Under the pieces are notes generated by a model that did no database searches, was not told the origin of the DNA, and was given only the letters and a program-made list of their open reading frames with translations. From assembly GCA_900314125.1 (NCBI GenBank), contig OMUD01000170.1, positions 1 through 34,848 on the forward strand: a DNA stretch of 34,848 bases. Reading direction: 5' to 3'. This document shows, in pieces, positions 29,567 to 34,758 of the stretch; positions within the stretch are counted from its first letter, which is position 1; every line of letters begins with the position of its first letter. Origin of the DNA: an uncultured Prevotellaceae bacterium (lineage in GTDB: Bacteria > Bacteroidota > Bacteroidia > Bacteroidales > Bacteroidaceae). Position numbers and translations under genes: made by a program.

Positions 29567-32062
29567 ATGAATGTGAAATCTGATTGCTTCATATACTACG
29601 CTGACAGAGACAGTGCGGAAGCCACTATTGCTCAACTGAGAATGTATAATGGTGGAGGACGAATCTATCTTTTGGCTGATAATGCCAAGATGCCACCGAT
29701 TGATGGATGCACCACGATTATTGTGGACAATATCAACAGCTCGATGGCTGTTAGGGAGATTGCGCGTGCGGCTCAGACGGATTTCTTGTTTGTCTATTCA
29801 AAGGAAACTCCTTTGAAACTGTCATACAACACCTTGTATAGGATGGCTGATATTGCCTCGTCTTCTGAGGTGGACTTGGTCTATGCTGACCACTATTCAA
29901 TTGAAAACGGTAAGGTGGTGAAAGCGCCTTGCATCGACTGCCAGAAGGGTGCCATACGCAATGACTTCGATTTTGGGTCTTTGCTCCTTTATAGAACTGA
30001 TTCTGTACAAAAATATGTGGAGCAGGCTGCAGAATGCAAGTGGATGTATGCGGCAAATTACGACCTGAGGCTCTTTATTTCCAGAATGAAAGATGACAAT
30101 ATCTTTCATGTGAAAGAATTTCTCTACACGGAGCAGGAATTGGACCTGAGGAAAAGCGGAGAGAAACAGTTCGATTATGTCAATCCGAATAACAGGGACG
30201 TTCAGATTGAGATGGAGAAGGTGGCTACCAGGCATCTGAAGAACATTGGAGCGTTTATCGGTACCGAGTCTGTGGAGATCGTCAATGTGAAAAGTGGAGA
30301 GTTCGAATGCGAGGCATCGGTCATCATACCTGTGAAAAACCGGGCGAAAACGGTGAAGGATGCTGTGATGTCTGCGCTCTCACAAAATGCGGATTTCAAC
30401 TTCAACGTGATTGTGGTGGACAATCATTCAGATGATGGAACCACAGAAATTCTCAGCCAAATAGCAGCTGAGAATCCTCAATGCATTCATATTATTCCTG
30501 ATACGGACGATTTGGGAATTGGAGGATGTTGGAACCTGGCAGTGAACGACCCAAGATGTGGACGATTTGCTGTGCAGCTCGACAGTGATGACCTTTACAG
30601 TTCGGAACAGACACTGGCGAACATTGTCGCTAAATTTTATGAGGAGGGATGTGCTATGGTCATCGGATCTTATAGAATGTGTGACTTCAATCTGAAGACT
30701 TTGCCGCCAGGAATTATTGACCATCGTGAGTGGACTGATGAGAATGGACGGAATAATGCGTTGAGAATAAACGGATTGGGGGCACCAAGAGCTTTCTTCA
30801 CACCGCTTCTGCGAAAGTACGGAGTACCTAACACAAGCTACGGAGAGGATTATGCGCTTGGATTGCTTTTCTCCAGAATGTTTAAAATCGGACGTATCTA
30901 CGACGAGCTCTATCTCTGCAGAAGATGGGAAGGCAATTCGGATGCGGCATTATCAAGAGACAAGGTTAATGCCAACAATCTATATAAGGATTCGCTCAGA
31001 ACCATTGAAATCAAAGCAAGGCAGGTTTTAGGACGATCTTTTGAGGAGGCTTTTTCTGATAAGGAATTCATGCATTTTTTCAAAGATCAGCTTAACCAAT
31101 GGGATGAAGCGGCTTTGAGATATAAGCAGTTGGATAATGTCAGAGTGAAAAAATTACAGCAGGAGGATGTCAAACTGGATGTCCAGTTCAATCCCGCAAG
31201 AATCGTATCCACTGGAGCTGACATTTCTAAGGAGGCACTGAAGAAAAGGCCTTGTTTCCTTTGTCCGGAAAACAGGCCGGAGGTACAGTGTGAACTGCAA
31301 ATCATCAATAAATATCAGTTGTTGGTGAATCCGTTCCCAATTCTTCCTGTGCATTTCACCGTTCCGCATAAGAATCATATTCCTCAAGAAATTTTACCGA
31401 ATTATGGTGATATGATGGAAATTGCCGATCAGCTGCAGAAATTGTTCATTTTCTATAATGGACCACAATGTGGAGCATCTGCTCCCGACCACATGCATTT
31501 CCAGATTGGATTGAGGGGTGTAGTACCGTTTGAACGGGATTGGGACGACAACTACAGAATCTCAAGGTCAAGAATCTATCCAATTCTTGATGAGGAGTTC
31601 ATCGAAATCACCAAAATTGAGGAAACGGCCGACGATACGGGCATCTTCCTTGCCAGATATCTCTGTCCTACATTCGTTATTGTCACTCGCACTCCTAAAG
31701 CTAACGCCATTTTGTTTGAGAAACTCTATAAAGCATTGGAACAAGAGGATAATGGAAAGGAGCCGATGATGAATATTTTGGCATGGAATATGATCTCTAA
31801 ATCGGATGGGCAGAAAAGAGTTGTCAGTGTGGTTATACCAAGGAGAAAACATAGACCGGATTGTTATTTTGAGTCGGATGATGAGTTGAAGGTACTTGTC
31901 AGTCCGGGAGCTCTTGATATGGCGGGACTTGTCATTACTCCACGTGAACAGGATTTCAATAAGATGGACACGTCATTGGCTGTGAGCATTATCCAGGAAT
32001 GTGGCATTGAGCCAGAAGAGGAGATGGCGGTTATCAAACGGCTTAAAAGTATTAGATTTTAG
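29567..32062 (+). CDS. Fusion: tandem GT-A glycosyltransferase regions + HxHxQ nucleotidyltransferase/phosphorylase-like domain
   Basis: A cytoplasmic-looking protein of 831 residues with no signal peptide or TM segment. Residues 1-240 look like a GT-A fold that has lost its DxD ([17 protein letters not shown] at 102-118, [14 protein letters not shown] at 134-147). Residues 249-480 are a regular GT2 domain: [30 protein letters not shown] (281-292), metal motif LDSDD (338-342) and acidic SYGEDYALG (424-432). Residues 540-790 resemble the HIT-superfamily GalT/Ap4A-phosphorylase/VTC2 group. They carry [12 protein letters not shown] (561-572), [20 protein letters not shown] (585-604) and HMHFQ (642-646), an HxHxQ motif whose middle histidine would carry the NMP. 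I believe this corresponds to DUF4922. The reaction is unknown. It is followed 18 nt later by the SpoIID-like gene. Confidence 0.82.
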
Positions 32063-32080: not shown

Positions 32081-33427
32081 ATGAAAGAATTTAAGGTCAG
32101 TGTCTGTGTGTTGCAGGCAACAAAACTTTCTGTTGGTCTGAACGGAAACTTTATGGCGAAAGGAGAAACCGTATCAGGCACTCAGATTGTGGAATATAAA
32201 GATGGGTGTATTCTCTGGAATGATAACTTATACCAGGAACTCAGTTTCATCCCGCAGCAAAAGGATGCGACTATTGAGGTTTATGACGTGAAAATCGGTA
32301 TCAATTTCCATTGGGAACGAACGGAGACTCAAACGTTCAAGGGGGCTATGAATATGCTGGCCGACAATGGGAAAATCTGTGCCATCAACATCCTTAATGT
32401 GGAGGACTATCTCATCAGTGTCATTTCATCAGAAATGAAAGCGACCTCCCCACTCGAATTTTTGAAATCACATGCCGTTATTTCCAGAAGTTGGCTCATC
32501 GCGCAAATCGAAAAAAGACGAAAGTTGTTGAAAAACAACCAGAACAACACTTTTTTCTCTTTCCATAAGAATGACCATTCATTGATAAGATGGTACGATA
32601 GGGAAGACCATATTCTTTTTGATGTCTGTGCAGACGACCATTGCCAGAGATATCAGGGAATTCAGCGAGCTGATAACCCTGCAGTCATTCAGGCGGTTAA
32701 CGAAACAAGGGGACTTGTCCTCATGTCGGAAGGTAAAATCTGTGATGCCAGATTCTCTAAATGTTGTGGAGGCATGATGGAACAGTTTGACGCATGCTGG
32801 GAAGATGTCAACATGCCATACCTGGTGGGTAAACGAGATGTCATCAATCCTGATGCAGATGCCTATGACAAATTGGACCTCACTGAGGAGAATGATGCCA
32901 AACAATGGATTCAATCTAATCCTCCGGCATTTTGCAACACCAGCAATTACAGAGTGCTGTCTAACATTCTCAATGCATACGACACCGAGACGATGGATTT
33001 TTATCGCTGGGAGCTGACATATAAGCAAGCGGAACTGGCTGAATTGATCAACAAGAAAACAAAAATCGATTTTGGCGAGATTATAGACCTCGTCCCTGTC
33101 AAAAGAGGGAAGTCCGGACGTATATATATGCTCAAAATTGTTGGTACTGAAAGATCATTCACTATCGGAAAGGAACTGGAAATCAGAAGGGTCTTATCCA
33201 CCACTCACTTGAAGTCATCTGCTTTCATTGTGCAACGCAATTTCAATAACGCGAAGCCCCCAACCGATAGCGTACCCGACAGTTTCACGCTGAAAGGGGC
33301 AGGCTGGGGACATGGAGTCGGACTCTGCCAAATCGGTGCAGCTGTGATGGGGGAGAGTGGATATGGATATCAGGAAATCTTGTCACACTACTATCCTGGA
33401 GCACAGATTACAGCTATTTATGAATAG
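32081..33427 (+). CDS. SpoIID/LytB domain protein (lytic transglycosylase-like), no visible signal peptide
   Basis: A 448-residue SpoIID/LytB family protein. SpoIID cuts denuded peptidoglycan glycan strands as a lytic transglycosylase. Visible motifs are VEDYLISVISSEM (107-119, Glu118 the likely catalytic acid), PLEFLKSHAVISRSWLIA (124-141), DVCADDHCQRYQG (181-193), ARFSKCCGGMMEQFDACW (223-240) and GWGHGVGLCQIGA (408-420). The N-terminus MKEFKVSVCVLQATKLSVGL has no hydrophobic export segment, odd for an enzyme of cell-wall glycan. It is flanked by the GT2-HxHxQ fusion (18 nt upstream) and an MFS gene (29 nt downstream), so the three are probably co-translated. Confidence 0.87.
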   Translation: MKEFKVSVCVLQATKLSVGLNGNFMAKGETVSGTQIVEYKDGCILWNDNLYQELSFIPQQKDATIEVYDVKIGINFHWERTETQTFKGAMNMLADNGKICAINILNVEDYLISVISSEMKATSPLEFLKSHAVISRSWLIAQIEKRRKLLKNNQNNTFFSFHKNDHSLIRWYDREDHILFDVCADDHCQRYQGIQRADNPAVIQAVNETRGLVLMSEGKICDARFSKCCGGMMEQFDACWEDVNMPYLVGKRDVINPDADAYDKLDLTEENDAKQWIQSNPPAFCNTSNYRVLSNILNAYDTETMDFYRWELTYKQAELAELINKKTKIDFGEIIDLVPVKRGKSGRIYMLKIVGTERSFTIGKELEIRRVLSTTHLKSSAFIVQRNFNNAKPPTDSVPDSFTLKGAGWGHGVGLCQIGAAVMGESGYGYQEILSHYYPGAQITAIYE

Positions 33428-33456: not shown

Positions 33457-34758
33457 ATGCAGAATAAGAACATGAACAGGAAGCGGCGGAACAGCCCGTG
33501 GATTTGGATCCCGGCGCTCTTTGCCACAGAGGCCATTGCATCTGCCATGGTCACTTATGTGGCGTTGCTCATGTTTGTGCAGTTGGGAGCATCTTTCGCT
33601 AAGGCGGCATTGATGGCGGCATTGCTCATGCTCCCTTCCGTACTGAAACTGTTTCTCGGATGGAAGCAAAAATATAATCCCTATCTGAAGAGTATGCTTA
33701 TTGGGGTCAATCTACTCCTTTTTGCAGCTTTCTGCCTCACGGCATTTGTGGTTGACTATGTCTTCTCCAACATTTTTGTCGTTTTCTCTGCCACTTTCCT
33801 TCTGGCGCTTATCAATGCGGTCAATGAGAAATATATTGCGGTCTATTATAACAATGTTTTAGACAAGAGGGCGCAAAGTCTCCTTGAGAATTATAAATTT
33901 GTGGCTACTCAGGTGGCTTTTATTCTCACTTATGGAATTTTGATTATTTTCGTCGGATTTCATGAAATTTTCTTCAGGAATATTCATCTGGCATGGTCTA
34001 TGGAGTTTTTCATTGTGGCGGGAGTGATTTTGATTCTTTTGCCTTTCATCGTGCTTACCATGCAAAGACCTAAAAGAAAATCAGAAATCCATGACGTGCA
34101 TGTTTATTCAAGGATGAATAATGCAAAAATAAGATCACGAAACATAAGGTTTCTCCTCATCGTTTGTATTTTGCTATTGCCTCAGTCTCTTTTGCTCTAC
34201 ACTCGGGTGTTTTATCTGATGACTCCTGCATCTAAAGGGGGATTGGACTGTACTTTACAGGAAGTGGGATTCGCTCAGGGTACAATAGGAGTAATTGCAT
34301 TTATGGCGGGAACTTTCATTGGACAGCATTTGTTAAGACGCTTTGGGAATATCAAAATGTTCTGGACAATGATCCTACCGCTACTCATTTCTCCTCTTTT
34401 CTACCTGATGATGGTGCTGAATGGAAGACCTTCAGATTTCCTCTACATCTGTCTTATGACTTTTGCATCTCAAATCTGTTTTGGATTCGGACTGAACATC
34501 TGCGTTATTTTCATAAAAAGAACCACCGACATTTTCGATGAGAATATTCTCAGTCTTGTACATGTGCCATTGGTGGTGATGGCGATGTTCGTGCCGGCTG
34601 CGCTATCAGGCTATCTCTTGGAAATCATGCAGTTCAAGAATTTCTTTATCCTTAACGTGACTGTATCTCTTTTGGCTGTATGTTTGATTCTCATGAATAA
34701 GCGGTTTATCCAACGACATATTCTCAACTATCGAAAAATACGGTTGAATACTGCATAG
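33457..34758 (+). CDS. MFS transporter (possible muropeptide/sugar permease)
   Basis: Major facilitator superfamily membrane protein of 433 residues with about 12 hydrophobic helices in two halves, separated by a basic loop near residues 205-230 (MQRPKRKSEIHDVHVYSRMN). WIWIPALFATEAIASAMVTY starts helix 1. I see no motif that fixes the substrate; AmpG-like muropeptide permeases are one possibility given the SpoIID-like neighbour. An AGGAG lies about 7 nt before the chosen ATG; a second in-frame ATG (33472) is possible. It is the last gene of the cassette and is followed by a hairpin at 34800-34833. Confidence 0.82.
   Translation: MQNKNMNRKRRNSPWIWIPALFATEAIASAMVTYVALLMFVQLGASFAKAALMAALLMLPSVLKLFLGWKQKYNPYLKSMLIGVNLLLFAAFCLTAFVVDYVFSNIFVVFSATFLLALINAVNEKYIAVYYNNVLDKRAQSLLENYKFVATQVAFILTYGILIIFVGFHEIFFRNIHLAWSMEFFIVAGVILILLPFIVLTMQRPKRKSEIHDVHVYSRMNNAKIRSRNIRFLLIVCILLLPQSLLLYTRVFYLMTPASKGGLDCTLQEVGFAQGTIGVIAFMAGTFIGQHLLRRFGNIKMFWTMILPLLISPLFYLMMVLNGRPSDFLYICLMTFASQICFGFGLNICVIFIKRTTDIFDENILSLVHVPLVVMAMFVPAALSGYLLEIMQFKNFFILNVTVSLLAVCLILMNKRFIQRHILNYRKIRLNTA

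Follow-up and report, generated by a model that had tools for sequence, protein, structure and literature searches.

A glycosyltransferase-DUF4922 fusion from a Prevotellaceae bacterium as part of a candidate muropeptide-salvage module

Why should a glycosyltransferase (GT) be joined in one polypeptide to a domain resembling nucleotidyltransferases and phosphorylases? The question is raised by P0001, a protein encoded in a contig of an uncultured Prevotellaceae bacterium (OMUD01000170.1, 34,848 nucleotides, analysed over its whole length and referred to here as the window). We propose, with moderate confidence, that P0001 represents, in fused form, a muropeptide-salvage module that is widespread and as yet uncharacterised. 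Specifically, we hypothesise, with a probability of roughly 0.5, that a cytosolic module of three activities, comprising a GT2 glycosyltransferase, an Ap4A-phosphorylase-like nucleotidyltransferase and a SpoIID-type lytic transglycosylase, processes muropeptide sugars imported by AmpG-type permeases, with nucleotide exchange carried out by the Apa2-like domain. That the pathway served is muropeptide-sugar salvage we regard as quite probable, while the particular division of chemistry among GT, DUF4922 and SpoIID set out below is offered tentatively. Put differently, the pathway is well supported, whereas the reaction is only inferred, and the assignments of donor, acceptor and nucleobase are putative. 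Knowledge of how Bacteroidota handle AmpG-imported wall fragments is itself incomplete. The features of P0001 are:

29567..32062, + strand: GT-DUF4922 fusion protein P0001, 831 aa (ORF from ATG to stop; Pfam)
29567..30301, + strand: degenerate GT-A-like half without DXD, aa 1-245 (residue comparison and a moderate structure match)
30302..31036, + strand: GT2 domain of inverting GT-A type, aa 246-490, with DSDD 339-342 and YGEDY 425-429 (PF00535, fold, conservation)
31037..32059, + strand: DUF4922 domain with Ap4A-phosphorylase fold, aa 491-831, with CxxC 563-566 and HMHFQ 642-646 (PF16269, Apa2 match, conservation)

The ORF has exactly the bounds given in the original prediction (29567-32062, + strand, 831 aa, ATG to stop), and the motifs named there are each present in one copy (CFLC at 563, HMHFQ at 642 and DSDD at 339); YGEDY at aa 425 is likewise a single occurrence. 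The HMM check proposed for DUF4922 and GT2 found both families by Pfam, DUF4922 (PF16269) at aa 504-648 (E 1.3e-63; 213.7 bits against a gathering score of 23.6) and Glycos_transf_2 (PF00535) at aa 251-384 (E 1.3e-19), and these E values exclude chance domain matches; weak matches to the N- and C-terminal families of Ap4A phosphorylase were also seen. An assembly error does not explain the fusion, since many other genomes encode full-length homologues with 45-59% identity. Among 60 relatives the two activities are either fused over the full length or split between two neighbouring genes, one of about 490 aa and one of about 310 aa, and 80 named relatives, which include Leyella lascolaii, Segatella buccae ATCC 33574 and Prevotella multiformis DSM 16608, belong almost exclusively to Prevotellaceae or other Bacteroidales; how common the fusion is in Prevotellaceae was not mentioned in the original prediction. 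We take P0001 to be cytosolic because its first residues are already predicted to form a beta strand and a signal peptide is not evident. A full-length model (mean pLDDT 81.5, pTM 0.68) was used with its inter-domain geometry left aside.

Within the glycosyltransferase part (aa 1-490), the second half (aa 246-490) has what is expected of GT2 enzymes, a domain matching the GT2 profile with both a DXD and an E/D catalytic motif, and DSDD and GED are present in 100% of 103 GT sequences. In the full model this half matches the GT-A structures RmlT, TarP (with UDP-GlcNAc), TarS and WrtF at a VIA Z of about 20, and the stretch at about 368-406, where the GT is most conserved, has a pLDDT below 50. 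The N-terminal half had been described as an inactive-looking GT-A region. This description is borne out in part. The residues found opposite DSDD are T/S78 and K79, with no aspartates at all; aa 1-493 can be aligned with the double GT-A of the chondroitin polymerase K4CP, at an rmsd of about 20 A across the two domains; and a profile comparison of the halves finds them approximately in register, but the match is weak (E 0.002, probability 14%). An internal duplication is nevertheless likely, the profile support for it being weak. The standalone GT of relatives is already about 490 aa long, so the N-terminal half belongs to the GT.

Modelled separately (mean pLDDT 88, pTM 0.90), the DUF4922 domain superimposes end to end on yeast Apa2 (PDB 4i5t, 4i5v, 4i5w; Foldseek E 5e-11; VIA Z 21.2, rmsd 3.4 A, 266 aligned), as does the same region within the full-length model (Z 21.1). 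A HIT/GalT fold had been predicted for the 540-790 region, and the structure search agrees: the Apa2-like fold covers the whole domain and places it in the Ap4A phosphorylase branch of the HIT superfamily. A profile from 30 diverse DUF4922 proteins likewise finds Apa2 as its sole solved-structure match at E < 0.001, with HxHxQ aligned to DHKHLQ. The two also share a YN.GP..G.S motif, although they are only 16% identical and the invariant CxxC of DUF4922 is not seen in the aligned Apa2 stretch. To our knowledge, Apa2 is not found fused to, or in an operon with, a GT or SpoIID.

HxHxQ, the nucleophile motif of the superfamily, is kept in 112 of 115 sampled DUF4922 ORFs, in keeping with the expectation that HMHFQ would be conserved; CFLC is kept in the same proportion (112/115), and His596, His604 and Gln607 are likewise invariant among fused homologues. 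His644 is the predicted nucleophile. The zinc sites of GalT comprise a CxxC pair and, by analogy, the CxxC of DUF4922 together with a His could hold zinc. Of the original label "GalT/Ap4A-phosphorylase/VTC2-like", the Ap4A phosphorylase part stands, but GalT is not the nearest relative: DUF4931, ADP-glucose phosphorylase and GalT rank after Apa2 with Z of only 8-10, in a comparison that covered solved GalT and ADP-glucose phosphorylase. As Apa2 scores so far above GalT, a GalT-only reading was dropped, with NDP-sugar substrates still possible. GalT, ADP-glucose phosphorylase and the VTC2/GGP group are HIT-superfamily HxHxQ enzymes acting on nucleotide sugars, and the motif is common to them and DUF4922; one plant GGP group has been placed in the DUF4922 superfamily (PMC9871823). 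Divergent copies with an altered motif occur at two loci, HLHFY with CSFC in L172 (G284:C24) and HLHFH in L177. DUF4922 is also present in Synechococcus and Lactococcus control genomes, while the GT pairing data described below are from Bacteroidota only.

Two further genes follow in the same direction:

32081..33427, + strand: SpoIID/LytB-domain protein, 448 aa, no evident signal peptide, with Glu118 and a Cys183/His187/Cys188 motif (TIGR02669, PDB SpoIID matches)
33457..34758, + strand: AmpG-like MFS permease, 433 aa, a divergent paralogue (TIGR00901 E 1.7e-13, below cut-off)

The SpoIID/LytB protein belongs to TIGR02669 (E 9e-53; 180 bits against a cut-off of 83) and is matched by solved SpoIID structures in the PDB. 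Its catalytic-type residues Glu118, Cys183, His187 and Cys188 are 100% invariant in 98 homologues, so that it shares the domain, the catalytic-type Glu and the C-H-C motif with the SpoIID/LytB lytic transglycosylases of C. difficile and other sporulators. Sporulator SpoIID acts outside the cytoplasm, whereas the module protein appears to be cytosolic, since it can be fused behind a GT that starts without a signal peptide; we regard it as a putative cytosolic lytic transglycosylase. The permease can be called only AmpG-like, as it reaches 50 bits against the TIGR00901 cut-off of 350. It is 24% identical to the AmpG of the Bacteroides-type operon, and a closer AmpG-like gene lies on contig C203 of the same genome. 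These partners, namely SpoIID (often a third fused domain) and an AmpG importer, and with them the link to muropeptide recycling, were absent from the original prediction.

The order GT-DUF4922-SpoIID-MFS recurs across loci, with the AmpG-type importer usually last. The DUF4922 ORFs counted take the forms GT+DUF+SpoIID (73), GT+DUF (9), DUF+SpoIID (1) and separate (33); every fused form preserves the module gene order, and where the genes are separate the median overlap is 4 nt at the GT/DUF, DUF/SpoIID and SpoIID/MFS junctions. Some lineages have the GT/DUF4922 pair away from SpoIID and AmpG. One genome, G014 (L161 on C1 and L162 on C9), has lost DUF4922 between the GT and SpoIID of its operon and has a second, fused GT-DUF4922 elsewhere.

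A single draw of 296 genomes from the phylum gave strong matches to the GT in 40, to DUF4922 in 41 and to this type of SpoIID in 40. All three occur together in 39 genomes and none in 255, with only two discordant, G216 (no GT) and G283 (no SpoIID). Fisher values are about 1e-46 to 1e-49, a statistic that ignores shared ancestry, and several genomes keep the full set though the genes lie on different contigs. The GT accompanies DUF4922 in 40/41 genomes and, given this obligate pairing and the overlapping genes, it is plausible that the two share a nucleotide-sugar step. The original suggestion, of a protein that may make or recycle its own NDP-sugar, stays tentative. An AmpG-like MFS is present in 41/41 module genomes compared with 12/38 chosen others. 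These 38 comparison genomes are a non-random choice (AnmK is in 38/38 of them as against 190/255 over the full draw), and for this reason we give little weight to a further contrast, in which a strong match to NagZ (NF003740) is missing (best E > 1e-30) from 12/41 module genomes and 0/38 of the others.

The same order has been described in Tannerella forsythia, where Tanf_08345-08385 form one transcript, xanthan lyase, gtf, gtf, lytB, ampG, ybbC (NamZ), murTKQ (PMC5388701), under GppX control (PMC7670621), with gtf, gtf and lytB as separate genes, in contrast to the fused GT-DUF4922 of the window. T. forsythia AmpG is functional in E. coli, and AmpG and MurTKQ act in muropeptide/MurNAc use (PMC5388701, PMC5790795). 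The second gtf (Tanf_08355) is the presumed DUF4922 counterpart, matched by gene order and not by sequence. In the literature that we found, no reaction is assigned to gtf, gtf and lytB, and a search on DUF4922, Tanf_08350/55/60 and SpoIID in Bacteroidetes returned no functional study of the GT/DUF4922 pair; a predicted chemistry is now offered for these three genes of a well-studied operon. At one locus (L165) the extended operon also encodes two exo-muramidases of the NamZ type, a sodium symporter, an HGSNAT-like protein and an oxidase of FAD/4Fe-4S D-2-hydroxyacid type; the family of this oxidase adjoins the module outside Bacteroidales as well. The neighbourhood of R. marinus RmNag3, going by its description in a paper on GH3, does not correspond to the module.

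The wider recycling genes of these genomes bear on the same pathway, in comparisons that are post hoc, uneven across families and made with statistics that ignore phylogeny. AnmK is present in 17/41 module genomes and 190/255 others (p 7e-5), and both MurQ and AnmK are missing from nine module genomes, the window's own (G000, 85% complete) included. The module genomes without MurQ (9/9) have a short MurU-like gene that scores under the NCBIfam cut-off, as do 6/32 of the rest (p 1.4e-5); in the window's genome this gene directly follows an APH-type kinase with a RapZ C-terminal domain. Since module genomes without MurQ and AnmK carry this gene, the data suggest that where the module exists MurNAc can return to UDP-MurNAc without AnmK. 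It would be too simple to see the module as a replacement for AnmK, because many module genomes keep AnmK and MurQ, and at least family f41 has neither AnmK nor the module. The strict three-gene signature of GT, DUF4922 and SpoIID across the phylum comes with the prediction of an AnmK-independent route. The AmpG-NagZ-AmpD-AnmK-(AmgK/MurU) recycling of E. coli and Pseudomonas resembles the module in AmpG import, in MurNAc reuse and in the AmgK/MurU-like pair of the window's genome, and differs in having AnmK, which most module genomes in our sample lack; we know of no GT, nucleotidyltransferase-exchange or SpoIID step in those routes. At L187:3-2216 (G000 contig C124), L186 and L185 a RapZ C-terminal domain is fused to, or encoded next to, an APH-type (AmgK-like) kinase, and a MurU-like nucleotidyltransferase comes directly after it, an arrangement which may represent GlcN6P-sensing control of MurNAc salvage.

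We suggest the following working for the module. Muro-oligosaccharides or anhydro-disaccharides would enter through AmpG, as shown in Tannerella and presumed here, and in the cytosol the SpoIID domain, judging from its conserved residues, may act on the glycosidic bond of MurNAc or on its 1,6-anhydro bond. The GT2 domain would move a sugar, most likely GlcNAc, between NDP and the muro-sugar, an inverting GT being fitting for the beta-1,4 bond of GlcNAc-MurNAc. Consistent with the Apa2 fold and HxHxQ, His644 would then take up the nucleotidyl group and exchange it with phosphate (NDP-sugar + Pi <-> NDP + sugar-1-phosphate), and the nucleotide would therefore stay local to the GT. Products may feed re-use, in the window's own genome by way of the AmgK/MurU-like pair towards UDP-MurNAc. 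If true, this would join a GT and an Ap4A-phosphorylase-type enzyme in a partnership new to enzymology. A more specific version, which we consider improbable, is that GT and DUF4922 are the two parts of one glycoside phosphorylase, in which NDP is a cofactor that is recycled: the GT would run in reverse (GlcNAc-muro-sugar + NDP -> NDP-GlcNAc + muro-sugar), the Apa2-like domain would phosphorolyse NDP-GlcNAc to GlcNAc-1-phosphate and NDP, saving ATP, and SpoIID would open or cleave the (anhydro)MurNAc bond, giving an AnmK-free route.

The same genes could instead serve biosynthesis, DUF4922 combining a nucleotide and salvaged sugar-1-phosphate into an NDP-sugar on the spot, the GT building a cytosolic glycan or modifying a muropeptide, and SpoIID trimming the product, for example a signal or surface glycan. 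The forward direction is normal for an intact inverting GT, GT4 genes adjoin the pair in three loci (L166, L170, L180), and the T. forsythia operon has been termed glycosylation-related (PMC5388701); the companions of the module, however, serve import, degradation or salvage (AmpG, NamZ, MurK/Q-type, D-lactate-type oxidase), with no flippases, polymerases or exporters among them, and we hold biosynthesis to be possible but the less favoured direction. Rather further down we place the idea that DUF4922 is an ordinary Ap4A (NpnN) phosphorylase clearing dinucleotides, its union with GT and SpoIID being regulatory or incidental. Apa2 is by far the nearest fold (Z 21) and the only solved structure reached by profile at E < 0.001, which favours such an enzyme, whereas near-perfect co-occurrence and repeated fusion with one particular GT and SpoIID would be unexpected for a housekeeping Ap4A enzyme.

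A different doubt concerns the joining itself, which might be an accident of co-transcription, two independent operon enzymes having merged through stop-codon loss without substrate channelling. That the genes remain separate in many genomes speaks for this, while fusions that differ between lineages yet keep one order, and the 4 nt overlap of the separate genes, speak against it without making channelling a requirement; we judge the accident somewhat doubtful, and it bears on the mechanism and not on the pathway of muropeptide-sugar salvage that we prefer.

Several minor observations concern the neighbourhood. A small predicted outer-membrane beta-barrel protein is encoded just upstream of the GT (window:28986-29468), likewise in L145 and L146. 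As operon partners, w3070 was rejected as a common sigma-54 regulator, and the upstream rlmN-, apbE- and pdxA-like genes of Prevotella (named from sequence) as plain lineage synteny. In family f58 (L166, L170, L180) the GT4 glycosyltransferase gene separates SpoIID from the GT/DUF4922 genes. In L189, L190 and L192 the AmpG-like permease gene has a BadF-type sugar kinase gene as its neighbour, and many AmpG-like ORFs are about 600 aa long, apparently through a large insertion.
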